DNA from: Marispirochaeta aestuarii
Lineage (GTDB): Bacteria; Spirochaetota; Spirochaetia; JC444; Marispirochaetaceae
DNA length: 64,000 nt
Assembly: GCF_002087085.1 (NCBI RefSeq)
Contig: NZ_MWQY01000002.1
Span: forward strand, 248,001 to 312,000
Direction of reading: 5' to 3'
The position numbers and the translations under genes were made by a program. Positions 41,837-60,142 of the stretch are shown here, in pieces. Below the pieces are notes generated by a model. The model ran no database searches, was not told the origin of the DNA, and saw nothing but the letters and a program-made list of their open reading frames with translations. Position 1 is the stretch's first letter; each line of letters begins with the position of its first letter.

Positions 41837-42835
41837 TCATCCTGCAAGATACTCGTACACCCCCTGGGGGATGCTGATTCCTTCCCGCCGGGACTTCTGC
41901 ATTGTCTGGTTTTCAATTTCTCCGGGAATCATAACTCTCGAAAAACCCTCTGCGGGAGCCTGGCTGTGAAGCTCGTCTATCATCCTCTGGGTAGTCTCGA
42001 GATATGCATCTCCCCCGAATACAGCCGGATCAATTACGAGGATGAAGTTTGACAGATCCCGGGATTTATCCATGTCGCCGTACATCTTTGTCAAATGCGG
42101 GCCGAAAACTCCTCCTATCATGAGACCGGTAAGGGCTTCAACCATAATATTGATGCCATAACCCTTGGCCCCGCCGAAAGGAAAGAGGGATTTTGCCGCA
42201 TTGGGATCCGTCGTGGGGTTCCCCCGGGAATCCACGGCCCATCCCGCCGGAATGGGCTGCTCCTTTTCCCGGGCGTAGAAGATCTTGCCGAAGGCTACTT
42301 CGCTGGTGGCCATGTCCAGAAGTATGGATTCCTTTTTTCCCGGAAAACCGAAGGCGAAGGGATTGGTCCCGAAGAACGCCTGCCTTCCCCCGAAAGGGAC
42401 CACACAGGCATCGGTATTGACCATTACCATGGCCGCCATTCCGGCATTCAGGGCCATCTGCACATAATAGGCCAGGGCCCCGCAATGGCTGTTGTTGCGG
42501 ATTCCCATCATACAGATTCCCTCGGTTCCGGCAAGCTTTATGGCTTCGGCGCATGCAAAGCGGGTTGTGACATGGCCGGCTCCCCCCTGGGCATCCACGA
42601 GGCCGATGGAAGGTTTGAGCATCTCCACCCTAAGCTCAGGATTGCGGTTCATACCGCCGGATTTTATCCTGTTTACGTAGTGCTCGACCCGCAGGACCCC
42701 GTGGGAATGAACCCCCCGCAGATCGGCAAAGACCAGGACATCGGCGATAACCTCCGCATCCTTCCGGGGGATATCAACCTCCAGCAATCGCTGGACTACA
42801 AGTTTCTTGAGTTCGTCTTCGTTTATGCTGACCAT
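41837..42835 (-). CDS. Malate/ureidoglycolate dehydrogenase-family oxidoreductase (AllD-like)
   Basis: About 332 residues of the LDH2/MDG2 family. VFADLRGVHSHGVLRVEHYVNRI near the start holds the catalytic histidine; further motifs are NNSHCGALAYYVQMA, GTNPFAFGFPG and FGGAKGYGINIMVEALTG. These enzymes oxidise 2-hydroxy acids (malate, ureidoglycolate, 2,3-diketogulonate) with NAD(P). Start ATG 42835 matches the N-terminus of AllD, and GGAAG precedes it; a longer ATG at 42862 overlaps the -10 hexamer. The TRAP terminator lies upstream, yet context links it to that transporter and to larA. Confidence 0.9.
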   Translation of the reverse strand: MVSINEDELKKLVVQRLLEVDIPRKDAEVIADVLVFADLRGVHSHGVLRVEHYVNRIKSGGMNRNPELRVEMLKPSIGLVDAQGGAGHVTTRFACAEAIKLAGTEGICMMGIRNNSHCGALAYYVQMALNAGMAAMVMVNTDACVVPFGGRQAFFGTNPFAFGFPGKKESILLDMATSEVAFGKIFYAREKEQPIPAGWAVDSRGNPTTDPNAAKSLFPFGGAKGYGINIMVEALTGLMIGGVFGPHLTKMYGDMDKSRDLSNFILVIDPAVFGGDAYLETTQRMIDELHSQAPAEGFSRVMIPGEIENQTMQKSRREGISIPQGVYEYLAG

Positions 42836-42861
42836 ACATACTTCCATTCCGGTTTTCTTCA

Positions 42862-42867
42862 ATTATA
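42862..42867 (-). promoter_or_regulatory. Candidate -10 element of the AllD-like gene
   Basis: TATAAT (perfect -10) lies 27-32 nt upstream of ATG 42835 on the minus strand. The -35 region (TTCCCT at 17-nt spacing) is poor, so activation may be needed. Its position argues against the longer reading frame starting at 42862. Confidence 0.4.
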
Positions 42868-42890
42868 GGATATAAACGGTCTGGAGGGAA

Positions 42891-42922
42891 TAAAAGTCCG
42901 CCCGGGAACACGACCCGGGCGG
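42891..42922 (-). terminator. Terminator of the second TRAP operon
   Basis: Arms CCGCCCGGG and CCCGGGCGG (9 bp, perfect) with a 7-nt loop lie 12 nt after the dctM stop and are followed on the minus strand by ACTTTTATT. It separates dctPQM from the AllD-like gene. Confidence 0.85.
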
Positions 42923-42934
42923 TTAAGCATCTTT

Positions 42935-44242
42935 TTACAGGAATTCCGGCATAAACAATCGGGGCAGGAACATCGTCAATCCGGGGAAAACGATAATTGC
43001 CGAGAGTACCAGAAGCATAATGGCCAGGAAGATCCCGACCTCCTTGATTGCGTCCATACTGTTTATTCCGCCGATTTCACTGGATATCAGCAGACACAGT
43101 CCGTAGGGAGGTGTAATCAGCCCGAAACTTAATGCCACGATACCGGAAATGGCGTAATGCAGAGGATGGATGCCCGCGTGCTCCGCCAGGGGCATCAGCA
43201 GGGGCGTCATTATAACGATGGCCGGAATTGCATCCATGAAGGTTCCGACAATAAGAAAGAGCCCGACGATAATAAAGAGCATCACCGTTGGGGAGCTGGT
43301 AATATAGCCGATGGCCTCCACCATGTAGGCGGGCAGGCGATAGTAGGCCAGAACCCAGCCGTAAATTGATGCTGTTCCCACCGCGAAGAGAGAGAGGCCC
43401 CCAAGCTTTGCCGTTTCAAGGAGCAGACCGGAAACCCTTCCCGGTTTTATTGTCCGATAGACAAACAGCGCCAGGAACAGGGCGTAGGCTACCGCCAGCA
43501 GCGAAGCCTCCGTGGGGGTAACAAAGCCGCCCACTATACCGCCGATGATTATAACCGGAGTAATACCCGGCAGTATGGCGGCCTTGAAACTCAGCCCAAG
43601 TTCCTTCCAGTCCATGGCGTGTTCCTTGGGATACTTTCTCTTGATGGAAAAGATGTGTACCAGTCCCATCTGAGAAAGGGCGACCATAACTCCCGGAACG
43701 AACCCTGCGAGAAAGAGGGCCGCCACGGAGGTGTTGGACACGCCGCCCCAGACAACCATGATAATGCTGGGCGGTATAATCACCCCCATTACGCTGGAAC
43801 AGGCGGTAACCGCAACGGTGAAGAACCGGTCGTATTTTTCCTTTATCATGGCGGGGATCAGCACCGATCCGATACCGGCGGCATCCGCAGTGGAAGATCC
43901 GGATATGCCGGCAAAGAACATGCTGACAACAACATTTACATGGGCAAGCCCGCCGGGCAAATGCCCCACCAGGGCCTTGGAAAAGCGGATCAGCTTGTTG
44001 GTAATTCCCGAGGCGTTCATTACATTTGCGGCCATGATAAAGAAGGGGACCGACAGAAGAATGAAGGAATCGTAGGACTTCAGCATCCGCTGCAAAAGCA
44101 TTACGGGAGTCAGCCGGGGTTCCACGAGCAGAACCGGCACAACCGCCAGGGCCAGGGCATAGGCAACAGGAATTCGTAATACGATAAGCAGGATCAGACC
44201 GCCAAAAAGCAGAATGCCGACTATGGCTGGATCAAATATCAC
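42935..44242 (-). CDS. dctM: TRAP transporter large permease (DctM)
   Basis: 435 residues, 12-13 membrane segments, with DctM motifs SVPFFIMAANVMNASG, GISGSSTADAAGIGSVLIPAM, SSVMGVIIPPSIIMVVWGG and GFVTPTEASLLAV. The last is the usual position of the sodium and substrate site. It overlaps the upstream dctQ by 4 nt (ATGA). Clearly a different subgroup from the DctM at 29625. The operon carries SBP first, then DctQ and DctM; substrate likely a 2-hydroxy acid given the flanking larA and AllD-like genes. Confidence 0.95.
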   Translation of the reverse strand: MIFDPAIVGILLFGGLILLIVLRIPVAYALALAVVPVLLVEPRLTPVMLLQRMLKSYDSFILLSVPFFIMAANVMNASGITNKLIRFSKALVGHLPGGLAHVNVVVSMFFAGISGSSTADAAGIGSVLIPAMIKEKYDRFFTVAVTACSSVMGVIIPPSIIMVVWGGVSNTSVAALFLAGFVPGVMVALSQMGLVHIFSIKRKYPKEHAMDWKELGLSFKAAILPGITPVIIIGGIVGGFVTPTEASLLAVAYALFLALFVYRTIKPGRVSGLLLETAKLGGLSLFAVGTASIYGWVLAYYRLPAYMVEAIGYITSSPTVMLFIIVGLFLIVGTFMDAIPAIVIMTPLLMPLAEHAGIHPLHYAISGIVALSFGLITPPYGLCLLISSEIGGINSMDAIKEVGIFLAIMLLVLSAIIVFPGLTMFLPRLFMPEFL

Positions 44243-44751
44243 GGTAGTTCCCCCTCTTCAGGTTCTTGCTGCTTTGGCAGGCCTTTTCCAGTAATCAGCC
44301 GTGCGACCTGCTCAATAAGAAAGATGGTCCAGGTAAAACCCGCGAACGGGACCGAGGCATGAATCCAACCGAGATTTATGCCCGTCAGCTCTGACTGCTG
44401 AATGGTACCCATCTTCCAGTACCTGAACCCGAAGCGCAGGAAAATGTAGGAAACAGCAAACAGAAGAACATAGTAAAGAATGTCGAGGACCAGGTTGACC
44501 TTTGGGGACAGGTTGCGGGGCAGAAAGTCGACGTAGAAATGCCTCCGCTCCCTGAGCCCGATCATGGACCCGAGAAAGATCACCCAGATCAGCGACATTC
44601 GCGCCACCTCTTCCGCCCAGAGATAACGGGGAATAAAATGGATATAGCGGCCCATGATCTGCAGCGCGACGGAAAACATGAGCAGGTACATGAGCAGAAT
44701 AATTACCGCATTTATAATACGCACATAAACATCCAGAATCTTTGTAAACAT
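44239..44751 (-). CDS. dctQ: TRAP transporter small permease (DctQ)
   Basis: About 170 residues, four membrane helices, with the conserved LWAEEVARMSLIWVIFLGSMIGLRERRHFYVDF region of DctQ. Start at ATG 44751 (MFTKILDVYV) after GGAAGG at somewhat long spacing; the frame is open further to 44805. An intergenic hairpin lies between it and dctP. Confidence 0.93.
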   Translation of the reverse strand: MFTKILDVYVRIINAVIILLMYLLMFSVALQIMGRYIHFIPRYLWAEEVARMSLIWVIFLGSMIGLRERRHFYVDFLPRNLSPKVNLVLDILYYVLLFAVSYIFLRFGFRYWKMGTIQQSELTGINLGWIHASVPFAGFTWTIFLIEQVARLITGKGLPKQQEPEEGELP

Positions 44752-44792
44752 GGGAGTATTCCTTCCAGAAGATTTGACAGGAAGATAGAACA

Positions 44793-44819
44793 GGACAGGC
44801 AGCATGCAGCCGCCTGCCC
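44793..44819 (-). other. Hairpin between dctP and dctQ (second TRAP operon)
   Basis: On the minus strand GGGCAGGCGGC and GCTGCCTGTCC pair over 11 positions (two as G-U) around a 5-nt loop, 23 nt after the dctP stop codon. No T-run follows. Same place and kind as in the three other transporter operons. Confidence 0.65.
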
Positions 44820-44842
44820 CGGTTTCAGGCCGACCCTGGGGG

Positions 44843-45850
44843 TCAGCGCATGCTGTCTACATTCGCAAGGATCTCTTCAGCGCCGATTTCCTTGGCGAAA
44901 GCTTCAAGAGCCGGCCGTGCAGCAGCCTGCATCCTGGCCAGGTCCTCCGGAGGAAGTTCGATCAGCTTGATCTTGCCTTCGGCTTCCATCTCTTTCAGGG
45001 CCTCGGCGTCTTCCCGGGTTTCCGTAGCACGGTGCCAGGCAGCGGCCTCTTCTCCTGCCTTCAGAATGGCGTCCTGGAGCTCCTTCGGGAAACTCTGGAA
45101 GCGCTTTTCGCTGAAGAAAAGGGGCCGTACGGTAATAGCATGCCGGGTAAGCACGATATTCGGGGCTACCTCGTAGAATTTCATGGAGCGCAGTGCCGCC
45201 GACTCATTCTCGAGACCGTCAACTACACCGGTTTTGATTCCGTTATAGACCTCGAGATAATCCAGAGGAGTGGCCTTGAATCCGACTGCGTTGAAAACAT
45301 TTGCCTGAATGGGAGATCCCATTACACGAAGCAGGATATTGGGAAAGTCCTCAGTTCCCTTTACAGGCTGGTTCAGAATCAGGTTCCGGGTACCGCCGCC
45401 GCCGTATCCAACGATGCGCAGCCCCTTCTTGATCAGGTCCTCTTTTATAGGGGCAAAGGCATCTTCACTGAGGGCTCTGTCCCAGTGGTCCAGGTCCTTG
45501 AACAGGAAGGGAGGATCCATAAAGGAGACCCTCTTGTCCCAGGTAGCGGCCCAGGAGGGAGCGGCAATGGCGAAATCGACGGAGATACCTTCGATCATGA
45601 ACTCTACAAAGTCCTTCTCCTGACCAAGATCACCGGAGTGGTGTACCTCAATTTCGATGGGACCATCGTAGTATTCTTTAACCTTTTCGGCGAAAACCTC
45701 CATCATCCTGTAGAACACATAGTCGGCAGGAAGGTGGGTGGCACCCACCAGGCGGATGGGTCGCTCGGCACCGGCTTCTCCCTGGGCCCCGGCGAACAGG
45801 GTCCCGAATCCGATGATCAGCACAAGGGACACAATTAAAAACTTCTTCAT
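44843..45850 (-). CDS. dctP: TRAP transporter substrate-binding protein (DctP)
   Basis: 335 residues with a signal peptide MKKFLIVSLVLIIGFGTLFAGAQG. TRAP binding pattern: FAEKVKEYYDGPIEIEVHHSGDLGQEKDFVEFMIEGISVDFA, then FPNILLRVMGSPIQANVFNAVGFKATPL, with the ligand-binding arginine in LLRVMGS, and EVYNGIKTGVVDGLENE. Soluble periplasmic receptor, no lipobox. AAGGAGG before ATG 45850. A good promoter lies at 45890-45918. The ligand is probably a hydroxy acid, by context only. Confidence 0.95.
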   Translation of the reverse strand: MKKFLIVSLVLIIGFGTLFAGAQGEAGAERPIRLVGATHLPADYVFYRMMEVFAEKVKEYYDGPIEIEVHHSGDLGQEKDFVEFMIEGISVDFAIAAPSWAATWDKRVSFMDPPFLFKDLDHWDRALSEDAFAPIKEDLIKKGLRIVGYGGGGTRNLILNQPVKGTEDFPNILLRVMGSPIQANVFNAVGFKATPLDYLEVYNGIKTGVVDGLENESAALRSMKFYEVAPNIVLTRHAITVRPLFFSEKRFQSFPKELQDAILKAGEEAAAWHRATETREDAEALKEMEAEGKIKLIELPPEDLARMQAAARPALEAFAKEIGAEEILANVDSMR

Positions 45851-45889
45851 ACAACCTCCTTTACGGATTGTCCAAAATAAATATGCTTA

Positions 45890-45918
45890 ATTGTAATCGC
45901 CAAAATTCAAAACCGCAA
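45890..45918 (-). promoter_or_regulatory. Promoter of the second TRAP operon
   Basis: On the minus strand TTGCGG (45913-45918) and TACAAT (45890-45895) are separated by exactly 17 nt, about 40 nt before the dctP start codon. Four of six and five of six bases match the sigma-70 consensus. The 186-bp gap also holds a short GTGAA-TTCAC hairpin near 46010-46023 after larA, which may be a weak terminator. Confidence 0.6.
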
Positions 45919-46036
45919 TCTTTTTAGGTAAACAATCTGATATTTTCTGGAACAAATATCCGAGAAATTTCGAATACAAAAAAACAATCCGCAAAAAGCA
46001 TTATACAAAGTGAATAGTTTCACGGCATCCTGCTTT

Positions 46037-47308
46037 TCAGTCCAGAACAGGCAGCATATCAGCGGCATGAGTCAGGACGGTAATACCCGAAGAGGATCCT
46101 TTGCGTTTCAAAGCTTCGTCCAGGGCCTCCTGCACAGAGGAGAAATGGATAAACCCGAGTTTATCCGCCGTTTCCTTATCGATTCCGTGGGAAACAATAA
46201 AGACAGTCTCCCGTTCCTTTACCTGGGCCCAGGCGATAGCCAGGGCAGCAGCGACCTTGTCCCTGACCTCTCCCCTCTCCACCATTTCACGGAGTCTGCC
46301 TGAGGATTCTCCGGTTACTTCCAGAATATCATCATGGGTCATGGCCACACCTTCGTAACAGGGGGTAACGATAATGATGATACCCTTTTCCTTAACCGCC
46401 AGGTCCGAGGGATACAGGGTCTTGTGGGCCTGCCAGAACTCTATGTCGCAGGGATGGGAACTGGAAACAACAATATCCGCGGCTTGCGGGATGTTGACGG
46501 AAAAGACCTTTTTTGACCGCTCCACACCCTTTCGAAACGCGGCCTCCACATCACCGAAAAAAGCTTCCACCACCTCGCCGTAGCGATTCAGGACGGTATT
46601 GAATATGATATTCAGACCGACTTTTCTGGCTATGGAATCGAGCTCCCTGCGTACGGGGTTCTCGAGGACCCCCAGGTAGGAGCGCGGGGCCCGGACGGAC
46701 AGCAGATGGGTCTCTGCTGTGGTATCCTCACCGGACACTCCCGGCTGTATAATCTTTGAGCCCCCGGCAAAGCCTGGAATATGGTGGGGAACGATGCTGC
46801 CGACACCGATTACGAAATCCGCTTCACAGACCTCCCGGTTTATCATGATTTTCGTACCATTTTCCGTCGTCCCAAGATCCACAAGACTATCAAGGTCCCT
46901 GAAGGGATGGTTCCTGATTGTAATGCGGCGTACAACCTCGGGACCGAATTTCTTAAGGATCTCCTCGTCCGTCATGAAGCGGTGGGTCCCCAGGGCAATA
47001 ATCAGGGTAATCGCGCCGTCCGGGACACCCGCGGCATTCAAGGCATCCAGAACAGGAGGCAGAATCAGATCAGCAGGGGTAAGACGGGTGTTGTCGTCGG
47101 CTACAATGACTACCCTCTTTTTCCCCCTGGCCAGCTCATCCAGCCTTCCGGATCCGATGGGGTTTTCCAGAGCCCGCCGGACTTCCCGGCGGATATCGGA
47201 AACGGGAGGCACCTCCTCCGGGGAATAGACCCCGATGATGTTTTCTTCAGGGATATCTACACCGACCTCCGTATCGCCGTAGGGAAGACTTACATGCCTG
47301 GTTTTCAT
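46037..47308 (-). CDS. larA: Nickel-dependent lactate racemase family protein (LarA)
   Basis: 423 residues. LarA residues match those known in Lactobacillus LarA with an offset of one or none: DDNTR at 71-75, H109 in GTHRFMTDEE, H175/H176 in HHIPGF, K185 in GGSKIIQPG (site that links the nickel-pincer cofactor) and H201 in AETHLL. The C-terminal HPCDIEFWQAHK is also conserved. The family racemises or epimerises 2-hydroxy acids. LarB, LarC and LarE for cofactor making are not in the window. AGGAGG before ATG 47308; only 27 nt separate it from the opp terminator. Confidence 0.93.
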   Translation of the reverse strand: MKTRHVSLPYGDTEVGVDIPEENIIGVYSPEEVPPVSDIRREVRRALENPIGSGRLDELARGKKRVVIVADDNTRLTPADLILPPVLDALNAAGVPDGAITLIIALGTHRFMTDEEILKKFGPEVVRRITIRNHPFRDLDSLVDLGTTENGTKIMINREVCEADFVIGVGSIVPHHIPGFAGGSKIIQPGVSGEDTTAETHLLSVRAPRSYLGVLENPVRRELDSIARKVGLNIIFNTVLNRYGEVVEAFFGDVEAAFRKGVERSKKVFSVNIPQAADIVVSSSHPCDIEFWQAHKTLYPSDLAVKEKGIIIIVTPCYEGVAMTHDDILEVTGESSGRLREMVERGEVRDKVAAALAIAWAQVKERETVFIVSHGIDKETADKLGFIHFSSVQEALDEALKRKGSSSGITVLTHAADMLPVLD

Positions 47309-47334: not shown

Positions 47335-47362
47335 AAAAAAGAGGCCCGCTTTCGCGGGCCCT
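47335..47362 (-). terminator. Terminator of the opp operon
   Basis: Arms GGCCCGC and GCGGGCC (7 bp, with further flanking pairing) around a 4-nt loop, followed on the minus strand by C and a T-run. It lies 13-40 nt after oppF and ends only about 27 nt before larA. Confidence 0.88.
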
Positions 47363-47374
47363 TACGGGCAGAAT

Positions 47375-48397
47375 CTACTCAGTAGTACCCGCCTGTTCAG
47401 ATTGTATGGCATCCAGTCGAATACATGCAACCATATGCCCCTTTCCTTTATCCACCAGTTCAGGTACACGCTTTTTGCACTCCTCCGCCGCAAATCTGCA
47501 GCGCGTGTGAAATCGGCACCCGGAAGGCGGATCTATTGCATTTGAGACATCTCCTTTCAGAATAATCCTCTTTCTGCTTCGCTCGATGTCGGGGTCAGCT
47601 TCCGGGACTGCAGAAAGCAGGGCCGTGGTGTAGGGATGCAATGGATTATCGAAAATCTCCTTCTTGTCAGCGATCTCCATGAGTTTACCCAGATACATAA
47701 CCGCGACACGATCGCTTATATGCCGTACAACCGCCAGGTCATGGGCAATAAACAGGTAGGTAAGATTATATTTTTCCTGAATGTCCATCAGCAGATTTAT
47801 TATCTGGGCCTGAATGGACACATCGAGAGCAGAAATCGGCTCATCGCATACAATAAACTCAGGATCACTGGCCAGAGCCCTGGCTATACAGATACGCTGT
47901 CGCTGCCCCCCGGAAAACTCGTGGGGATAGCGGTTGGCGACATTCGGACTCAGACCCACATCCCGGATCAGCTGAGCGACTTTTGGCTGGATTTCCTTCT
48001 CTGAGCAGATCTTGTGTACCCGCATGGGTTCTGCCAGGGCTTCACCGATAGTCATACGAGGATTCAAGGTGGAATAAGGGTCCTGAAAGACGATCTGCAC
48101 GTTCTTACGTACGCTCCGGAGTTCCTTTTCCTTGAGTTTGGATAGATCGACTCCGTCATATTCAACTGTTCCGGAGGTAGGCCGATACAGCTGCAGCAGG
48201 GTAAAGCCGGTTGTAGATTTCCCGCAGCCCGACTCACCCACCAGTCCGAGGGTTTCTCCCCGGTAAATATCGAAGGAAACTCCATCTATGGCATGCACGA
48301 TTGCCGATTTTTCACCAAAGGCACCGATTTTGACTGGAAACTCTTTTACCAGGTTTTTAACCCGCATTATCGGCTGTCGGCTTTCTGTTTCAGCCAT
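47375..48397 (-). CDS. oppF: Oligopeptide-type ABC transporter ATPase (OppF)
   Basis: 340 residues. Walker A GLVGESGCGKSTTGF, Q-loop QDPYSTLNPRMTIGE, signature YPHEFSGGQRQRICIARALA, Walker B FIVCDEPISALD, and switch histidine FIAHDLAVV. C-terminal oligopeptide/dipeptide domain with the cysteine set SGCRFHTRCRFAAEEC, which may hold an iron-sulfur cluster as in DppD. Start overlaps the oppD stop by one base (TAATG). Energises import of an Opp/Dpp/nickel-family substrate. Confidence 0.95.
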   Translation of the reverse strand: MAETESRQPIMRVKNLVKEFPVKIGAFGEKSAIVHAIDGVSFDIYRGETLGLVGESGCGKSTTGFTLLQLYRPTSGTVEYDGVDLSKLKEKELRSVRKNVQIVFQDPYSTLNPRMTIGEALAEPMRVHKICSEKEIQPKVAQLIRDVGLSPNVANRYPHEFSGGQRQRICIARALASDPEFIVCDEPISALDVSIQAQIINLLMDIQEKYNLTYLFIAHDLAVVRHISDRVAVMYLGKLMEIADKKEIFDNPLHPYTTALLSAVPEADPDIERSRKRIILKGDVSNAIDPPSGCRFHTRCRFAAEECKKRVPELVDKGKGHMVACIRLDAIQSEQAGTTE

Positions 48398-49395
48398 TAC
48401 CGCACCTCCCCGGTTTTAATATCAACCCAGCAGGCAATCCTGTGCCGCGATCCCGACTCCGCCCCGGGGATTATTTCCAGAGGCGGAACCTGTTTCGCGC
48501 AGATCTCCTTTTTGAAGGAACAGCGTGGCGCAAAAGGACAGCCCGTCGGTTTTACAAAAAGATTCGGAGGAGCTCCGCCTATGGAAGGCAGTCGGCTGCC
48601 CGCTTCAGTCTTGAGGCTGGGTATTGATTTCAGGAGTCCCAGGGTGTATGGATGCCGGGGGTCCTTGTAAATATCATCGAGCTTTGCCTCTTCTACAACG
48701 AAACCTGAATACATGACCATTATCCGGTCAACCATTCCGGCAAGGAGGCTGAGGTCATGGGTAATCCAGATAATGGATGTATTCATCTTCTCCCGCAGAT
48801 CCTTGACCAGCTCTACGATCTGGGCCTGTATGGTTACATCCAGTGCCGTCGTTGGTTCATCGGCGATAACCAGGGATGGTTCCCCCAAAAGCGCCATGGC
48901 GATCATAACGCGCTGCCGCATACCGCCGGAAAGCTGATGCGGGTACTCGTAGAGGCGATGCTCGGCGTTGGAAATACCAACCAGTTCAAGGTATTTTGCC
49001 GCTCGTTGCATAGCCTCGGTTTTTTTAATACTTTTATGATACATAAGACCTTCGCAAAGCTGTTTTCCGATTTTCATAAAGGGATTCAGCGATGTCATGG
49101 GATCCTGAAAAATCATCCCCACCTTCGAACCCCGTATTCTGTTCATTTCCGTTGTATTTGCCTTGCTGATATCTTTTCCGTCCAGAACGACACGACCGTT
49201 CGTAATTTCTGCGGACGGGGGGAGCAGTTTAATAAGGCTCATCATGGATACACTCTTGCCGCATCCGGACTCACCGACCACCCCCAGCATCTCTCCCTTA
49301 TCAAGGGTAAAAGAGACACCGTTTACTGCATACACAAAACCGTTTCTGGCTTTAAATCGTGTCTGCAGGTTCTCAACTTCCAGCAGTTTAGCCAC
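48397..49395 (-). CDS. oppD: Oligopeptide-type ABC transporter ATPase (OppD)
   Basis: 332 residues with Walker A GVVGESGCGKSVSMMSLI, Q-loop QDPMTSLNPFMKIGKQL, signature YPHQLSGGMRQRVMIAMALL, Walker B LVIADEPTTALD, and ITHDLSLLAG. Cysteine-rich tail TGCPFAPRCSFKKEICAKQVPP as in OppD/DppD. Paired with OppF as a heterodimeric motor. Ends in a 1-nt overlap with oppF; 32 nt after oppC. Confidence 0.95.
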   Translation of the reverse strand: MAKLLEVENLQTRFKARNGFVYAVNGVSFTLDKGEMLGVVGESGCGKSVSMMSLIKLLPPSAEITNGRVVLDGKDISKANTTEMNRIRGSKVGMIFQDPMTSLNPFMKIGKQLCEGLMYHKSIKKTEAMQRAAKYLELVGISNAEHRLYEYPHQLSGGMRQRVMIAMALLGEPSLVIADEPTTALDVTIQAQIVELVKDLREKMNTSIIWITHDLSLLAGMVDRIMVMYSGFVVEEAKLDDIYKDPRHPYTLGLLKSIPSLKTEAGSRLPSIGGAPPNLFVKPTGCPFAPRCSFKKEICAKQVPPLEIIPGAESGSRHRIACWVDIKTGEVR

Positions 49396-49427
49396 TGGTA
49401 TCCCCCTTTCTCTGTCTGATCATTCTG

Positions 49428-50381
49428 TTACTTCCATTGCCGCGGGTTCAGGGCGTCATTCAATCCATCCCCAAGAAAACTGAATGCAATAATTACGACA
49501 GCCAGTACAATGGCGGGAGCAGCCAGAATGTGGGGATATAACTGCCATACCCGCAGTCCATCGGAAATCATGTTTCCCCAGCTTGGTATGGGAGGGCGGA
49601 CACCTACACCGAGGAAGCTGAAGGAGGATTCGAAGACCATGGCCTCTCCCAGTGAGGCACTCACAAACACGATAATCGGTCCAAGGGCATTGGGTACCAC
49701 GTACTTGCGCACGAGCTTTGAGGTAGGAACACCGAGGGCCCTGGCGGCCAGAACGTAATTCTTGTTTCGGATAGACAGAACCTGCCCCCGTATTATACGA
49801 GCAGCCTTGGGCCATTTGATAAGTGCGAGAGAACCGAACACCAGGACAAAATCGGCCCAGATGGTCTGACGGAAGAATTCGTTTCCCGTCAGAAGAAACT
49901 GTGCATCCATCCAGTTTACCAGCCGCGGCTTAAGGGACACGTTGATTACAATAACCAGCAGCAACGAAGGGATCGACATGGTAACGTCGATAAGCCAGCT
50001 TATGAAGGAATCAACCTTCCCGCCGAAATACCCGGCAATTGATCCCATAATCAATCCGATAATCAGACTCAATATGGTCGTTGAAAAAGCCACGATTACT
50101 GCAGTACGAGCACCGTAAATAACCCGACTCAATATATCCCTGCCAAGATCATCGGTACCAAACCAGTGCTGCCACGAAGGAGCCTGATTCCTGGCCTGAA
50201 GGTCCTGGGACAGAAAATCGTAGGGTGTAATATACGGACCGAAGAGTGCAATGAAAAACAGAAGAAAAACGATGGCGAGACCGATTATTGCAAGTTTATT
50301 GGCAACAAGGCGATCAAAAGCATCTTTCAGAAGGTTGTACTGTTTTTCTTCCTGCTCAAGCACAAGAGCTTTATCTTCCAT
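49428..50381 (-). CDS. oppC: Oligopeptide-type ABC transporter permease (OppC)
   Basis: 317 residues, six membrane helices with a long N-terminal stretch. Signature FGTDDLGRDILSRVIYGARTAV and the EAA loop YVLAARALGVPTSKLVRKYVVPNALGPIIV, together with FLGVGVRPPIPSWGNMISDGL, identify the OppC/DppC type. Start overlaps the oppB stop by one base, which couples translation of both halves of the channel. Confidence 0.95.
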   Translation of the reverse strand: MEDKALVLEQEEKQYNLLKDAFDRLVANKLAIIGLAIVFLLFFIALFGPYITPYDFLSQDLQARNQAPSWQHWFGTDDLGRDILSRVIYGARTAVIVAFSTTILSLIIGLIMGSIAGYFGGKVDSFISWLIDVTMSIPSLLLVIVINVSLKPRLVNWMDAQFLLTGNEFFRQTIWADFVLVFGSLALIKWPKAARIIRGQVLSIRNKNYVLAARALGVPTSKLVRKYVVPNALGPIIVFVSASLGEAMVFESSFSFLGVGVRPPIPSWGNMISDGLRVWQLYPHILAAPAIVLAVVIIAFSFLGDGLNDALNPRQWK

Positions 50382-51337
50382 TACTCATCTCCTGTTTTTT
50401 TGGCGGCAGCCCTGGGATCAAGCAGAGGATAGGCTATATCCACCAGCAGATTCGAAGCCATGACTACGGCGGAAAAAATAAAGACAATAGCCAGGATCAC
50501 CGGATAGTCCGAGGATTTTATTGCAGTTTCTGTCAAACGGCCCAGACCGGGAAGTCCGAATACCTTTTCAATAAGAATGGAGTTGTTCAGGGTCGCAATT
50601 ACCAGGAGCCCGATCTGGCTAACCACGGGGGTCATTACCGGGCGAAGTATATGACGAAAAACCACGATATGCCGCGGAAGGCCCTTGGCCCTGGCGGTGC
50701 GAACGTAATCTTCACTCAGGACTTCCAGTACCCCCGCCCGCGCCTGTCGGATAATCAGGGCCATGGGATTGAGTCCCAGTACAAGGAGCGGCACAATAAC
50801 CTGTGGACTGAAGAGCCCCTCCCAGCCGTAGGGTACATCCATTCCCATAACCAGAACGAGAAAAACAATCAGAAGAGGACCGGCGACAAAGACCGGCACC
50901 CCCCAGACCATAAGAGCGAACCCGACGATTATGTTATCCACCAGTTTATTTTGGTTCAGAGCTGCAATAACTCCGAGAAGTATTCCTATTAATGATAGAA
51001 GAAAGATCGCCGACAGTCCTATCTGAAAGGTTACCGGAACAGCGGCCTTGAGCATCGAGTTTACCGAACGGCCGGAAACCAGGGAGTTTCCGAAATTTCC
51101 GTGTAGAATATTCCAGACATAACCACCGAACTGTACCAGGAAGGGTCGATTAAGGCCGGCGGATTCACGTATGGCTTCAACGCGAGCTTCATCGTAGGCG
51201 ACATCTCCGGGGGCACGAAGAAAAATCAGTTTAATCGGGTCCCCGGCGCCGAAAAAAACAAGGGCGTAAATAAGCAAAAGTATAAACAGCACCGATGGAA
51301 TCCAGCGGAGCAGCCTATTCAATATATAGCGTCCCAT
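50381..51337 (-). CDS. oppB: Oligopeptide-type ABC transporter permease (OppB)
   Basis: 318 residues, six membrane helices, with the OppB/DppB signatures LGVIAALNQNKLVDN, the EAA loop YVRTARAKGLPRHIVVFRHILRPVM, and LTETAIKSSDYPVI at the end. AAGGAA lies near ATG 51337. A hairpin between oppA and oppB probably keeps the permease level below that of the receptor. Confidence 0.95.
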   Translation of the reverse strand: MGRYILNRLLRWIPSVLFILLLIYALVFFGAGDPIKLIFLRAPGDVAYDEARVEAIRESAGLNRPFLVQFGGYVWNILHGNFGNSLVSGRSVNSMLKAAVPVTFQIGLSAIFLLSLIGILLGVIAALNQNKLVDNIIVGFALMVWGVPVFVAGPLLIVFLVLVMGMDVPYGWEGLFSPQVIVPLLVLGLNPMALIIRQARAGVLEVLSEDYVRTARAKGLPRHIVVFRHILRPVMTPVVSQIGLLVIATLNNSILIEKVFGLPGLGRLTETAIKSSDYPVILAIVFIFSAVVMASNLLVDIAYPLLDPRAAAKKTGDE

Positions 51338-51367
51338 TTCAGTTCCTTATACGGGGTTTAATAAAGC

Positions 51368-51391
51368 ACCGGGCTGCCAGGGCAACCCGGT
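51368..51391 (-). other. Hairpin between oppA and oppB
   Basis: ACCGGGCTGCC and GGCAACCCGGT pair over 11 positions with one mismatch or wobble and a very short loop, 15 nt after the oppA stop. No T-run follows. It matches the other post-receptor hairpins in the window. Confidence 0.65.
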
Positions 51392-51406
51392 ACCATACGG
51401 AGCCTG

Positions 51407-53029
51407 TTACGGCTTCATTGACTCGTCAATACTCACATTCCAGGGCTCGATAACCTGCCAGTCATCGTTCTTGTCGAAGTTCATAACCCAGGGCATGGCC
51501 CATTTGGACATGACATCATAGTAATAGGGAATGTAGTTCCATTCGTCCCGGAAGATCCGCTGAGCTTCCCGGGCAAGTTCGATTCTTGCGGGATCTTTAA
51601 CTCCCTTTCCGGATGCCTCTTCCAGAAGAGAATCAATTTTGGGATTTTTGTATCCCCCCATCTTGACGGTTGCATTTCCCGAACCGGAATAAATAGAACC
51701 CATCAGATAGGAAACGGCATCGGGAACACGGGTCCCGACATCGTCACGAAAGATCTGTACACTTTTCTGGTCGGGACCGGAGTAGGTCTCGATGGCGGGT
51801 TTCATTTCCACGCCCTGAATACCGAGGATGCTTCTCCACTGTTCGGCTATGTACTGCGCTGCCGCTTCATGAGTGGGAGTACTAATTCCTACAAACATGA
51901 TTTTTGGCAGTTTTGCAGCACTGCCGTATTTGGATGCGGCAAGAGCAGCTTTGGCAGCCTCCGGATCAAAGGGATACTCGGGATAATCAGGATCTACACC
52001 GGGAACCTTGTTCAGGATCTGGGTAGCCGGGGTAAAAGGTCCGTCCGGGAAGGCTGCAAGGGCAAGCTCTTCCTTGTTGACCGACATGATCAGTGCCTTG
52101 CGCACGTTGATGTCGTCCATGGGAGGCTTATGCGCATCCAGCCAGAACTGCTGGCCCTTGGCAAGAGGAGGTCCGCCAAGAAAGCCGGGGCCAAGATCCT
52201 GGATAATCGTGGGAGTAATCAGCTCGGTGTGGGCATCCATTTCTCCGCGTTTCAGCATAAGGGTAGCCGTACTTGCGTCGGAAACGGTTTTAATTACGAT
52301 CTTGTCGAGCTTCGGTGCAGGACCAAAGAAGTTGGGATTCGGAACCATCACAATAATTCCCTGATCAAGATCCATGGATTCCGGCATGAAGGGACCGGAT
52401 ACAACTACTCCGTTGTCCGGATGCCACCATTCAGATTTTTCCCGACCGGAAGCATCCTCAGCCTGGGAAATCTTTACCGGAGGAATCAGGGCTGTCGAGA
52501 TCTTCTGATCGAAAATAGGATCGGGAGAAGACAGTGTAACCACAATGGTCTTGGCATCTTTAACAGCAAGCCCGGTCATGTCGTCAGCTTTGCCAAGCTT
52601 TACGTCGTCAAAGCCCTTGACCCCGCTGAGAAAGAGGTCAATTCGGGCATGCTTGGTATCCGGACGGGCACACAGGTTCCAGGTTCCCACAACATCTTCC
52701 ACGGTTATGGCTGAGCCGTCGGAGAAGACCGCATCGGGATTCATTTTCAGTGTCCAGGTTTTGTACGAGGAATCCGACTCTGCGCTGGAAAGAACATAGG
52801 GGGTGATATTCCCGTCCTTGTCGAAGTACATGGGGGCTGCCCACCAGAGGGACTGCCAGCGGGCGGAGTGTCCTCCTCCCTGCAGGGGCGACCAGTTCTG
52901 CTGCAGCACCGGATGGGCAATATTCAGGACCTGCCCTGCTTCTTCAGCAGCGGCATCTCCCTGTCCGCCTGCAAATACAAGACCCGTCAGTGCGAGTCCG
53001 AACAAAAGGATCAAGATACATCTTTTCAT
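51407..53029 (-). CDS. oppA: Family 5 extracellular solute-binding protein (OppA/DppA type)
   Basis: 540 residues. Signal peptide MKRCILILLFGLALTGLVFAGGQGDA, spirochaete-like, no lipobox cysteine. Family 5 landmarks: YKTWTLKMNPDAVFSDGSAITVEDVVGTW, then VSGPFMPESMDLDQGIIVMVPNPNFFGPAPKLDKIVIK, and PMDDINVRKALIMSVNKEELA. Ligand is not clear: the family binds peptides, nickel, glycans or sialic acid. Downstream of an aldolase and an iron alcohol dehydrogenase, a sugar or organic acid rather than a peptide may be the ligand, by inference. AAGGAG-like site before ATG 53029. Confidence 0.93.
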   Translation of the reverse strand: MKRCILILLFGLALTGLVFAGGQGDAAAEEAGQVLNIAHPVLQQNWSPLQGGGHSARWQSLWWAAPMYFDKDGNITPYVLSSAESDSSYKTWTLKMNPDAVFSDGSAITVEDVVGTWNLCARPDTKHARIDLFLSGVKGFDDVKLGKADDMTGLAVKDAKTIVVTLSSPDPIFDQKISTALIPPVKISQAEDASGREKSEWWHPDNGVVVSGPFMPESMDLDQGIIVMVPNPNFFGPAPKLDKIVIKTVSDASTATLMLKRGEMDAHTELITPTIIQDLGPGFLGGPPLAKGQQFWLDAHKPPMDDINVRKALIMSVNKEELALAAFPDGPFTPATQILNKVPGVDPDYPEYPFDPEAAKAALAASKYGSAAKLPKIMFVGISTPTHEAAAQYIAEQWRSILGIQGVEMKPAIETYSGPDQKSVQIFRDDVGTRVPDAVSYLMGSIYSGSGNATVKMGGYKNPKIDSLLEEASGKGVKDPARIELAREAQRIFRDEWNYIPYYYDVMSKWAMPWVMNFDKNDDWQVIEPWNVSIDESMKP

Positions 53030-53053: not shown

Positions 53054-53950
53054 TTAAGCATGCCAGGCACGCTCAAGACCAAAATTGTCAATAACCTCGT
53101 TCAATGCCGCATCTACTTCAGTCGATGGAACAAGGGATGGCAGCCGGTTGTTTCCAACCTCCCTGTCAAGCAGGTAGAGGATACGCTTGACCATGGCGGG
53201 GGGATATCCCGGAGCATAGAGGGCTTCCCTGAACCGGTTGACCCTTTCCTGGGCGGCATCGGCCGCTTCGGCGTCGCCCGATTCAAAGCTGTCCGCCACA
53301 TTACGGATCCAGGATGGAATCACATTCGCCAGACCGGATACACATCCGGAAGCACCCTTCCGCAGTCCATAGAGGATAAGTGAATCGGTTCCGGCGTAGA
53401 GTTCAAATCCCGGGTTTTCCGCCACTACCTGGGCCAGAGCATCCAGGCGTTCCTTTTTTCCGCTGGAATCCTTGACTCCCTTTACGTTCGGATGTTTTGC
53501 CAGTCGGGCGACGGTGTCCACATCTATCGAGTTTCCCGTCCGCGCAGGGATCTCGTAAATGAACACGGGAACCGGAAGGGAATCAGCTATCCGCGAGTAA
53601 TGACGGTAGAGCCCTTCCTGGGTACAGGAGATGAAATATGGGGTAATGGCGGCGACGGCCTCAACCCCGATCCGGGCAAACTCCCTGGCCAGGAGAATTG
53701 TTTCGTGGGTTGACGGGCAGCCCGCATTCGCAATCAGCCGGTTTTTCCCCTGCGTAACGGCAGCACAGGATTCCACGACTTTTACCTTTTCATCGAAAGT
53801 AAGGCTGGAAAAATCTCCGTTGGTGCCGCAGGCGAATATGTCGTTTCCGGCTGCTATCTGCCGGCGGGCCTCATCCCTGATCTTTTCGAAATTGACGGAT
53901 TCGTCTTCCCGGAAGGCCGTAACCAGGGCTACAAAGGTCGAAATACTCAT
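53054..53950 (-). CDS. DapA/NAL-family aldolase
   Basis: About 298 residues of the dihydrodipicolinate synthase / N-acetylneuraminate lyase TIM-barrel family. Schiff-base lysine K160 in VKGVKDSSG, catalytic tyrosine Y132 in FIYEIPARTGN, and GTNGDFSSLT in the place of the usual GTTGE. The GTNG(E/D) form is more usual in lyases of sugar-acid or hydroxy-acid use than in lysine synthesis, and the neighbours fit catabolism. Start ATG 53950 with AAGGAG. It lies 13 nt after the iron alcohol dehydrogenase and 24 nt before oppA in one operon. Confidence 0.9.
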   Translation of the reverse strand: MSISTFVALVTAFREDESVNFEKIRDEARRQIAAGNDIFACGTNGDFSSLTFDEKVKVVESCAAVTQGKNRLIANAGCPSTHETILLAREFARIGVEAVAAITPYFISCTQEGLYRHYSRIADSLPVPVFIYEIPARTGNSIDVDTVARLAKHPNVKGVKDSSGKKERLDALAQVVAENPGFELYAGTDSLILYGLRKGASGCVSGLANVIPSWIRNVADSFESGDAEAADAAQERVNRFREALYAPGYPPAMVKRILYLLDREVGNNRLPSLVPSTEVDAALNEVIDNFGLERAWHA

Positions 53951-53963
53951 TAACTGTTCTCCT

Positions 53964-55124
53964 TTAACGTATACTCTCATAGAGTGCTTCAATATCTTTA
54001 ATGCTCATCTCTTTCGGATTATTGTTTAAAAGACGTTTGACCTGAAAAGCCGCTTCCGATAGTTCGGGGATTTTATCCGGTTTTATGCCGAACTCGGCCA
54101 TACTGGAGGGGATTTTAATCTCCCGCATCATTTTACGAAGATGCTCGATATATCTGTCCACTGTAGAGGAAGGATCAGCACCTGGTTCAATGCCGACTGT
54201 CCCGGCAACCTTCAGAAGCTTGTCCCGGACCGCGGTCTTGTTGAACTCGATGACCGGTACCAGCAGAATGGCATTGGAAACACCATGGGGAATCCGGTAG
54301 CGGCCGCCCAGGGGGTAGGACAGAGCGTGGACGGCGGTCGTTCCGGAAGAGGCAATGGCCATTCCTCCATAGAAAGATCCCAGCAGCATATCCGCCCGGG
54401 CCTGCATATTATCACCGTTCCTGCAGGCTTCACGGATCGCTCCGTCGATAAGGCGAATCCCCTCCAGCGCGACCATGTCGCTGTGGGGATTGGCTTTGTT
54501 GGAGATATAGCACTCAAGAACATGGCAATAGGCATCAACACCGGTCGATGCAGTAAGTGCAGGAGGAAGGGTTCTGGTCACGGCGGGATCGAGCACCACA
54601 TAATCCGGCATGAAGAAGGGACTGACCACCCCTACCTTGAGCTGTTTTTCCTTTAAAGCGACAATCGCATTGGGTGTCGATTCCGATCCGGTGCCGGCTG
54701 TTGTTGGAACCATAACACAAGGCAGCCCCGCCCCGGGAGCACCGGACTCCATAAGGGTAGCGACGGTACCTCCCCACTTCAGCAGAATCGAAAGAAACTT
54801 GGCGGTATCCAGTACGCTGCCGCCGCCCAGACCGACGATACAGCAGATATTCCTGCTGCCCAGGGATGAGGCCAGGGTCTCGATATCTTCGGAATATGGC
54901 TCCGGAGGAACCGAGTCGGCAAGTTCGGTCCTGAAACCTGCATCTGCAATACTCTTTGCAAGGGATGAGGGAATACCGGTTTTGCCGAAACCGGAATCCG
55001 TCAAGACAAGAACTGTTCCGCTTTTTTCGGGATTCAATATGGAAAGAAGGATTTCCGGAACGCGTTTGAGTTCACCCTCCCCAAAGAATACGTTTTTTGG
55101 AGCTGAAAAAGAAAAGCCTTTCAC
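53964..55124 (-). CDS. Iron-containing alcohol dehydrogenase
   Basis: 386 residues. NAD motif IVGLGGGSVLDTAKFLS, then MVPTTAGTGSESTPNAIVALKEKQLK. Metal ligands are D and H in STGVDAYCHVLECYI, H in TAVHALSYPLGG, and H in RIPHGVSNAILL, as in family III dehydrogenases (butanol, lactaldehyde, maleylacetate, glycerol types). Starts at GTG 55124 with GAGG upstream. First gene of the operon ADH-DapA-oppABCDF. It likely handles an aldehyde released by the neighbouring aldolase; that is inference. Confidence 0.93.
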   Translation of the reverse strand: MKGFSFSAPKNVFFGEGELKRVPEILLSILNPEKSGTVLVLTDSGFGKTGIPSSLAKSIADAGFRTELADSVPPEPYSEDIETLASSLGSRNICCIVGLGGGSVLDTAKFLSILLKWGGTVATLMESGAPGAGLPCVMVPTTAGTGSESTPNAIVALKEKQLKVGVVSPFFMPDYVVLDPAVTRTLPPALTASTGVDAYCHVLECYISNKANPHSDMVALEGIRLIDGAIREACRNGDNMQARADMLLGSFYGGMAIASSGTTAVHALSYPLGGRYRIPHGVSNAILLVPVIEFNKTAVRDKLLKVAGTVGIEPGADPSSTVDRYIEHLRKMMREIKIPSSMAEFGIKPDKIPELSEAAFQVKRLLNNNPKEMSIKDIEALYESIR

Positions 55125-55509: not shown

Positions 55510-57015
55510 CTACTCGGGCAAAACGGCAATCTCGCGCTTCAGGGTTGCCCGGATGTTAAGGGTAACGGTAACCGCTGTAATGGCAAGAAAAACAAGTGCT
55601 ATTGGCCGTGAGAAGAGAGAAAAAGCATCCATGGCAAACAGCTGAGACGATTTTCTAAGATTCATCTCGAACATGGGCCCGAGTATGAAACCGAGGATCA
55701 TTGGCGTCAACGGAACCCCGGCCTTGATAAGACCGTACCCGACAAGCCCGAACAGGAGGACACCCCAGACGTCGAAAATACTGTTACTGTCGCCGATGGC
55801 ACCGACACAACAAAGAATCACTATCAGAGGAAACAGGTACTGCTTGGGAATTTTCAGGATCCGTATAAATACCCTCATTCCCCCGAACTCGAGAATAAGC
55901 ATGGCTACGGCAGCTATGACCATCGCGACAAAAATGCCATATACCACCGGTCCGTTCCTGTCGAAAATGAGCGGTCCCGGTGCGATATCATGAACCATGA
56001 GACCGCCGAGCAGCATGGCAGTAACTGCATCACCGGGAATTCCCAGGGACAACAGTGGAATCATGGCACCCCCAATACTCGCATTATTCGCCGATTCCGA
56101 TGCCACAACACCATCCATTATACCAGTACCGAACTTGTCCGAATGTTTGGAGCTGTTTTTCGCGACCGTGTACGAAATCATACAGGCCGGACCACCGCCG
56201 ATCCCGGGCAGAATCCCGATACCAACGCCGATCAGGGCTGAACGTATCGTGTTGAACCACTGGGAGAAGAATTCCTTCAAGGAAAAACCGAATCCTCTGA
56301 TTTTGAAATCCTCATTTACTTCCGCTTCGTTATTGTTACGTACCTGTTCTGCATATTTTACCACTTCGGTTATTGCAAAGAGACCGATCAGAAAAACCAG
56401 CAGCTTGAATCCCGCAGTCAGGTTAACAGATCCGAAGGTAAAACGGGCTCTGGAGTCTATCGGCGATAGCCCTATAGTGGCGAACATGCAGCCGAGAATG
56501 GCGCTGATAAGACCTTTTACAATATCATCACCCGTTAATGCTATTACAAGGGAAAGGGAGAAGATTGCCAGCGCACAATATTCATATGCTCCGAATTTCA
56601 GTGCAAAACTCGCAACCTTCGGGGCCATAAACACCAGAATCCCGATTCCGATCAGGGTGCCGAAGAAGGAAAAAACAATTCCTGTACCAAGGGCTTTGCC
56701 GGCCATACCATTCTTCGCCATGGGTGCCCCGTCAAAGCAGGTCGCAACAGACGAAGGTGTACCCGGAATATTGAGCAGAATAGCCGAGATAAGGCCTCCC
56801 GAAATACCGCCTATATACAGGGCCACAAGGGTTGAAATTCCCTGTATGGGGGTCATCGTATAGGTCATGGGAAGAAACATCACTATCGACATCGTGGCAG
56901 TAAGTCCCGGAACAGATCCGAAAACAATACCCACCCCGACTCCGGAAAAAATCAATAACAGGATAAACGGATTGAAGGCGACGTTCGTCAATCCTTCTAT
57001 AAACGCAGAATACAT
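55510..57015 (-). CDS. tctA: Tripartite tricarboxylate transporter large permease (TctA)
   Basis: 501 residues, about 12 membrane segments, with the TctA hallmarks GIVFGSVPGLTATMSIVMFLP, LNIPGTPSSVATCFDGAPMAKNG, and the second-half copy GIGIGILPGIGGGPACMISY with GIPGDAVTAMLLGGL. With TctB and TctC it forms a secondary importer driven by an ion gradient; ligands include citrate, other carboxylates and aromatic acids. Last gene of the acid-sugar operon, 15 nt after tctB. Confidence 0.95.
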   Translation of the reverse strand: MYSAFIEGLTNVAFNPFILLLIFSGVGVGIVFGSVPGLTATMSIVMFLPMTYTMTPIQGISTLVALYIGGISGGLISAILLNIPGTPSSVATCFDGAPMAKNGMAGKALGTGIVFSFFGTLIGIGILVFMAPKVASFALKFGAYEYCALAIFSLSLVIALTGDDIVKGLISAILGCMFATIGLSPIDSRARFTFGSVNLTAGFKLLVFLIGLFAITEVVKYAEQVRNNNEAEVNEDFKIRGFGFSLKEFFSQWFNTIRSALIGVGIGILPGIGGGPACMISYTVAKNSSKHSDKFGTGIMDGVVASESANNASIGGAMIPLLSLGIPGDAVTAMLLGGLMVHDIAPGPLIFDRNGPVVYGIFVAMVIAAVAMLILEFGGMRVFIRILKIPKQYLFPLIVILCCVGAIGDSNSIFDVWGVLLFGLVGYGLIKAGVPLTPMILGFILGPMFEMNLRKSSQLFAMDAFSLFSRPIALVFLAITAVTVTLNIRATLKREIAVLPE

Positions 57016-57030
57016 TTGACGTCTCCTCCT

Positions 57031-57537
57031 TTAGAATCCGAGAATGCCCCTGGGCAGAAGAACAGATAACAATCTTACAAAGAGAAAATCGATCACCACA
57101 GAAGAAACGATCGCAATAATCGCTGCGGTCCTGTAATTCCTCTTACCTGGAGGTGTAAGTAATACTGATAAAAAGAAGATAAAAAGAATCGACATTATCG
57201 TGAAACCGACATATCCCAATAAAGCGGTATATACCCCTAGACCGACAAAGGTCAGAATCACTTCGTAATTTCGGTTATAGAAATCTCTTAAGGTCAGTTT
57301 TTCTGTTGAAATATCCATGCCCTCTTTTATAGCAATCCTCCTGCCCCTGAACCCTCGCAATAAGAGACTGAGGCTCAACGCCAGAAGACAGATACCCCAA
57401 AATCTCGGAATGAATGTGGCATCCAGAGGAGTGGCCCCCAATCCAAGAAAAGGCACGATATCAAAAGAAAAATACAGATAGAGTACAGAAAAAATGGACA
57501 AGGAACTGCCTGCCACAATGTTGGTTCGATAGGTCAA
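57031..57537 (-). CDS. tctB: Tripartite tricarboxylate transporter small permease (TctB)
   Basis: About 168 residues, four membrane helices, with the TctB-type PLDATFIPRFWGICLLALSL and the LRDFYNRNYEVILTFVGLGVYTALLGYVGFTIMSILF region. TTG 57537 is taken as start because AAGGAGG sits 6 nt before it; the longer frame to 57654 has no signal. About 206 bp lie between the LarA-like gene and this start, without a gene; no terminator was found there, so the operon probably continues. Confidence 0.88.
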   Translation of the reverse strand: MTYRTNIVAGSSLSIFSVLYLYFSFDIVPFLGLGATPLDATFIPRFWGICLLALSLSLLLRGFRGRRIAIKEGMDISTEKLTLRDFYNRNYEVILTFVGLGVYTALLGYVGFTIMSILFIFFLSVLLTPPGKRNYRTAAIIAIVSSVVIDFLFVRLLSVLLPRGILGF

Positions 57538-57743
57538 AACCTTCCTCCTTATGGATTTGAACTCACATAAAACCCGTACCGGTTCTCCAGGGCATCTCCA
57601 AAAACTACTCTTTTTCCCATTTTCAGGGTCGTCAAGATTTCCCGCGGTCCTCAACTCATGTTATCACAAGAATTTGCGGTCCTTACAAAATCTTTCTTTC
57701 CTGACTATGAAAAAACTACCACGTTCTTAGAGCTTCCCTCTAT

Positions 57744-59036: not shown

Positions 59037-59065
59037 AATTCCTGCTCAGCTCCGTGCATATAATT

Positions 59066-59095
59066 AACCCGAAAAGCCTTAAGGCTTTTCGGGTT
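59066..59095 (-). other. 30-bp perfect palindrome between tctC and the LarA-like gene
   Basis: Arms AACCCGAAAAGCCTT and AAGGCTTTTCGGGTT are complementary over all 15 positions without a spacer, 17 nt after the tctC stop. On the minus strand the sequence after it is AATTATAT, so it is not a strong terminator there; it is more likely an mRNA stabiliser or partial terminator that sets receptor against downstream gene levels. Confidence 0.75.
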
Positions 59096-59112
59096 TTAAC
59101 CTGTATTTTCAG

Positions 59113-60090: not shown

Positions 60091-60142
60091 GTAACCCCTC
60101 CTTAATAAATTATCCGATCCAGGACCGGATTGCGTAACATTG

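Follow-up and report, generated by a model that had tools for sequence, protein, structure and literature searches.

A LarA-family protein of Marispirochaeta aestuarii is a likely four-carbon aldonate 2-epimerase in one rearranged acid-sugar locus

What is a LarA-type protein doing beside a TRAP (tripartite ATP-independent periplasmic) transporter and an LDH2-family dehydrogenase in a spirochaete? We have analysed a window of 64,000 nucleotides from Marispirochaeta aestuarii (contig NZ_MWQY01000002.1, positions 248,001 to 312,000; coordinates below count from the first letter of the window), in which open reading frames and Pfam domains confirm larA, dctPQM and the LDH2 gene on the minus strand. 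A preliminary description had read these genes as one simple hydroxy-acid module, and a second LarA at 55-63 kb as the centre of another. The reading that we favour is that the window LarA is a 2-epimerase of four-carbon aldonates, most likely interconverting D-erythronate and D-threonate, within one acid-sugar catabolic locus (41.8-63.5 kb, minus strand). The main genes of this reading are the following, with the sister species (genome G002) as the point of comparison:

46037..47308, minus strand: larA of the HI/WQAHK clade, predicted C4-aldonate (threonate/erythronate) 2-epimerase (domains, residues, neighbours of relatives)
41837..42844, minus strand: LDH2-family (AllD-like) 2-hydroxy-acid dehydrogenase (Ldh_2 domain; sister ortholog 88%)
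44843..45850, minus strand: dctP, TRAP solute-binding protein, variable part (DctP domain; not in the sister's cluster)
44239..44763, minus strand: dctQ, TRAP small membrane subunit (DctQ domain)
42935..44242, minus strand: dctM, TRAP large membrane subunit (DctM domain)
62173..63477, minus strand: DUF1537 acid-sugar kinase, DtnK-like (sister-cluster ortholog 74% identical)
61125..62150, minus strand: PdxA2-like 4-phospho-tetronate dehydrogenase (metal-binding His motifs; sister-cluster ortholog 94%)
53964..55124, minus strand: iron-containing alcohol dehydrogenase (FeADH), conserved core gene (sister-cluster ortholog 86%)

The window LarA is a complete member of its superfamily (Lar_N 213.6 bits against a cut-off of 23.3, LarA_C 39.6 against 25). 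Its catalytic set, D72, H109, H175 and K296, corresponds to D72, H108, H174 and K298 of the L. plantarum enzyme, and the residues that bind the nickel-pincer nucleotide (NPN), R75, K185 and H201, to R75, K184 and H200. The preliminary description was thus right about H109, K185 and H201, but its H176 is a residue of the substrate loop and the second catalytic histidine is H175. The loop reads His-Ile where L. plantarum LarA has Phe-Phe, and Trp-Gln-Ala-His-Lys stands in place of Tyr-Gln-x-Val-Lys. The best structure match is the malate racemase Mar2 (LarAH6; 238 bits), the nearest characterised protein, which it matches over its full length with the catalytic and NPN-binding residues. It differs from Mar2 and the other LarAH groups in its own HI loop and WQAHK motif, in the DtnK/PdxA2 or IlvD/PanB neighbours of its clade, and in scoring below the cut-off of every curated NCBIfam LarA equivalog. 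Using the signature criteria of PMC7583248 and PMC11770544, we rejected lactate racemase (NF033504, 286 vs 460 bits; no FF loop and no W358, with Ala/Leu at 358/359), malate racemase (LarAH5/6, 354 vs 500 and 280 vs 462 bits; no Lys at 358/359) and, on scores and signature residues, 2-hydroxyglutarate racemase. An alpha-11 Trp has been reported also for aldonate (gluconate) epimerases (PMC7583248). With the D-gluconate 2-epimerases (GntE, LarAH18-20) the window LarA shares the Trp at the Y294 position and the predicted 2-epimerisation of an aldonate, but its loop residues differ and the hexonate model (NPN_18_hexonate) gives only 80.6 of the 500 bits.

A scan through a collection of 84,980 species genomes brought up 55 relatives of the window LarA. 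The HI loop and WQAHK are kept down to about 44% identity, with a single exception, an archaeal member with WQAGK. The LarAs with the WQ signature come from Spirochaetota, Bacillota, Thermodesulfobacteriota, Chloroflexota and other groups. In a likelihood tree a branch with support 84/92 has all of them to one side, the window LarA beside Spirochaetota and Bacillota sequences. We compared the neighbours of 58 clade members and 17 other LarAs, counting same-strand genes at a distance of up to 6 kb. A DUF1537 kinase or a PdxA-family dehydrogenase was found near 40 of the 58 clade members (kinase 35/58, PdxA 34/58); among the other LarAs the kinase was nearby in 2/17 and PdxA in 3/17, and two of these share loci with clade members. 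Gene order varies with the phylum (kinase-PdxA-LarA, LarA-kinase-PdxA or PdxA-LarA-kinase), which argues against mere shared descent of the association. A second partner set, an IlvD-type dehydratase (10 loci) and PanB (6 loci), replaces or supplements the kinase and PdxA, and in one locus (L060) a gluconate-type GntP permease follows LarA. In Syntrophaceae and relatives (L049, L050, L053) an IlvD-LarA pair, the LarA being of the HI type, lies close to and faces a unit made of a second LarA (YM/WV type), TRAP genes and PanB.

Where are the kinase and PdxA2 of the window itself? They lie at 61-63 kb, 14 kb from larA and inside what had been described as the other module. In the sister species a single cluster on one strand, between the same flanking genes, holds LDH2, larA, a group-22 LarA, TctABC, a DHDPS-family gene, a 2-hydroxyacid dehydrogenase, FeADH, pdxA2 and dtnK, and neither TRAP nor Opp genes. 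The two modules are therefore one rearranged locus, of which the TRAP operon is a variable component. For five genes, LDH2 (88% identical to the sister ortholog), LarA (85%), FeADH (86%), PdxA2 (94%) and DtnK (74%), the similarity matches that of the flanking genes (62-95%), and these five thus make up a conserved core. The remaining cluster genes are only 35-53% identical; to judge from these comparisons, the carriers, the second LarA, the aldolase and the 2-hydroxyacid dehydrogenase are exchanged parts of the locus. These and the other features of the region are:

57744..59036, minus strand: second LarA, NCBIfam group 22 (NF052515; sister copy only 49% identical)
55510..57015, minus strand: TctA, tripartite tricarboxylate-type, variable part (53% to the sister's)
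57031..57654, minus strand: probable TctB (assigned by position)
59113..60249, minus strand: TctC, variable part (35% to the sister's)
60143..61120, minus strand: D-2-hydroxyacid dehydrogenase family (PGDH-like), variable part
53054..53992, minus strand: DHDPS-family aldolase/lyase, variable part
47375..53029, minus strand: OppFDCBA-type ABC transporter operon, between larA and the rest of the cluster
47342..47361, minus strand: strong terminator-like hairpin with a T tract, ending the Opp operon just before larA
42898..42922, minus strand: terminator-like hairpin between dctM and LDH2, GC-rich, with a weaker tail

The second LarA, rightly recognised before, is surrounded by the genes of the tripartite tricarboxylate-type transporter (TTT; 55510..60249, minus strand) and scores 518.7 bits with the group-22 model NF052515 (cut-off 400). 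In three genomes of three families (L118 of G047, L120 of G040 and L103 of G002) a group-22 LarA gene stands directly beside a canonical one, which in two of them has the lactate/glycerate-type FF/WQ signature. The binding protein of the Opp operon gave no match at E<=1e-60 in the two congeners, in a search run without a positive control.

The kinase and PdxA2 suggest a link of the locus with a known chemistry. Kinases of the DUF1537 family that act on D-threonate (DtnK) and on D-erythronate (DenK) have been described (PMC10971088), and the work of Zhang et al. 2016, as cited in PMC10971088, has the catabolism of both acids proceed through such a kinase and PdxA2. The same enzyme families occur here in the same locus or operon; what the window would add is a LarA 2-epimerase, predicted to let both C2 epimers enter a single branch. 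The window PdxA2 scores 340 bits with TIGR00557 (cut-off 290), and its AGHTE, STHV and YHDQGH motifs can be read in the sequence. Our literature search for LarA together with PdxA or erythronate gave nothing beyond PMC11770544; Table S1 of PMC7583248 may already note the PdxA link.

We infer the following order of steps. A carrier, TTT and/or TRAP, would import the acid. LarA would then invert C2 by reversible hydride transfer on the nickel-pincer cofactor, turning D-erythronate (2R,3R) into D-threonate (2S,3R), and one downstream branch could serve both. The DtnK-type kinase would phosphorylate O4, and oxidation of C3 by PdxA2, accompanied by decarboxylation, would yield dihydroxyacetone phosphate. 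LDH2 may oxidise one of the C2 epimers in a side or alternative branch, and FeADH may also have a part in the pathway. As for the other partner set, dehydration of D-threonate gives 2-oxo-4-hydroxybutyrate (PMC10079672), and a PanB-type cleavage of this compound to pyruvate and a C1 unit is plausible. The kinase/PdxA2 and IlvD/PanB routes both start from 2,3,4-trihydroxybutanoate, which points to a four-carbon aldonate as the substrate.

Several observations weigh against this assignment. The window kinase does not reach the equivalog cut-off for D-threonate kinases (259 vs 450 bits; the next best model, OtnK, gives 179 vs 350) and shares only 25-35% identity with the kinases that adjoin clade LarAs. 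The Chloroflexota loci, which are numerous, are near-copies, so that the raw neighbour counts overstate independence. Neither kinase nor PdxA is near LarA in 18 of the 58 clade loci, several of them on short contigs; these 18 include the window and its sister, in which both genes lie at a greater distance. The spirochaete f28 loci have the kinase and LarA with no adjacent PdxA. We know of no clade member that has been assayed. Gene context has also misled for some earlier LarAs (PMC7583248). Lastly, larB, larC and larE were sought in the window genome, and no LarC and no LarB or LarE at cut-off were detected, for which an assembly gap is a possible reason.

The reading of the preliminary description and ours also part over the TRAP operon. 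That description had LarA, TRAP and LDH2 as a self-contained unit that imports a simple 2-hydroxy acid (lactate, malate, glycerate or ureidoglycolate), racemises it and oxidises one isomer. The genes are indeed adjacent on one strand, the P, Q and M subunits lie together, all domains score above the curated cut-offs (DctP 198.9, DctQ 96.8, DctM 331.6, Ldh_2 389.3 bits), and a LarA-type racemase/epimerase with intact residues does adjoin a 2-hydroxy-acid dehydrogenase. The best structure matches, Mar2 for LarA and ureidoglycolate dehydrogenase (4h8a/4fjs) for LDH2, also agree with it. However, LarA is below the malate and lactate racemase cut-offs and has neither the Lys for a second carboxylate nor the FF/W pocket of lactate racemase, and genes for four-carbon acid sugars are found beside its relatives. 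In the sister species LDH2 follows larA after 55 bp with no TRAP genes, where the window has the TRAP operon and its end hairpin. This hairpin (42922-42898) parts dctM from LDH2 and would be the terminator that had been claimed, if with a weaker tail; of the claimed promoter, the 186-bp gap between larA and dctP offers one TATAAT (at about 46004-45999), but no promoter-like site there passed a scan, so that a promoter of the operon's own has weak backing. LDH2 has AllD as its best relatives of known structure, but it comes near both AllD equivalog cut-offs without reaching them (348.3 vs 356 and 339.6 vs 496.2 bits), and its context is one of acid sugars, not allantoin. Paralogs 58-63% identical, in this genome and in relatives, often occur with TRAP, LacI-type and sugar-kinase-like genes; one in this genome, 62% identical, sits with another TRAP. 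LDH2 likely acts on a sugar acid, and a simple hydroxy-acid module is improbable. Within the class, the TRAP relatives closest in sequence (57-66% identity) are found in other contexts, none adjoining this LarA clade, and several have genes for a LacI-type regulator and for an arabinonate/galactonate-dehydratase-like enzyme as neighbours. Orthology to the TRAPs that flank clade LarAs elsewhere was discarded, with DctP only 24-29% identical. The operon is a variable part of the locus, probably acquired, and a predicted importer of sugar acids; to go by these relatives, a sugar acid is a fair guess for its ligand. TRAP paralogs with ca. 51% DctP identity (L149 and L155; G000:C2:5001-25000 and G002:C4) are followed by CoA-transferase-like, enoyl-CoA-hydratase-like and unassigned glycyl radical enzyme genes, the last with an activase gene after it in G002.

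A second alternative keeps the sugar acid and changes its length: LarA would epimerise a C5/C6 aldonate or a branched, pantoate-like 4-hydroxy acid, leaving steps further downstream to the kinase and PdxA. The alpha-11 Trp common to LarA and the gluconate/mannonate epimerases, the dehydratase-like neighbours of the TRAP relatives and the PanB of some clade loci would all suit it. So would the closest solved relatives of DctP, 4ovp and 4nx1, which we take to be uronate-bound; the predicted DctP model (pLDDT, the predicted local distance difference test, 84.6; 45% identity to 4ovp, its best fold match) confirms only the fold of a TRAP binding protein. Yet kinase plus PdxA2 and IlvD plus PanB both fit a C4 acid, and a pantoate-type acid lacks the C3 hydroxyl on which PdxA would act, so that we regard a longer or branched substrate as unlikely. 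It is very improbable that larA is a relic, cut off from its partners by insertions and outside any working pathway. Gene order is heavily rearranged relative to the sister, with the Opp and TRAP operons between core genes, but the frame is open, the residues are intact at 85% identity to the sister ortholog, and the core genes are still on one strand within 22 kb.

That LarA is a nickel enzyme should not be taken for granted from this assembly, as the preliminary description had done. The genome (G000; 4.2 Mb, 78 contigs, 97% complete) is, as that description would suggest, rich in LarA proteins: nine with a Lar_N domain, on contigs C1, C2, C4, C5, C9, C10 and C19 (L108-L114), among them several of group 22, a putative hexonate epimerase (659 vs 500 bits) and one that narrowly misses the malate racemase cut-off (488 vs 500 bits). 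The sister species does have larB, larC and larE (L102), and the ribonucleotide reductase (RNR) gene that neighbours them was also not found in G000. Between the LarAH18 that adjoins larCEB in G002 and the LarAH18 of G000 the identity is only 46%, and the loci are therefore not equivalent. In this sister locus (L102:8633-12730) the LarAH18 gene, a hexonate epimerase, lies directly before larC-larE-larB and lacks its first ca. 65 residues in frame. Among 60 relatives, the 20 genomes with LarB are also precisely those with LarC and with LarE (20/20 co-occurrence), and LarA-type proteins are present without them in 23 genomes. Fifteen of these have a canonical LarA, seven of them at least 95% complete. 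Near-complete genomes with a canonical LarA and none of the three genes are G012, G025, G028, G030, G038, G053 and G000, and the LarAs read in G012, G030 and G038 have intact catalytic and cofactor residues. For the class, the pattern of LarA without LarBCE looks real. We hold it doubtful that the whole proposal is correct in its widest form, namely a multi-phylum clade of nickel-pincer tetronate 2-epimerases which in this lineage would work without LarB, LarC and LarE, on a cofactor imported or made by another route.

The locus also raises the question of where LarA proteins obtain their cofactor in genomes that do not carry the synthesis genes. If the four-carbon aldonate 2-epimerase reading is true, a widespread and so far unassigned LarA clade would gain a substrate class, the NPN epimerases would be linked with the DUF1537/PdxA2 catabolism of acid sugars, and the use of both C2 epimers of a tetronate would be explained.

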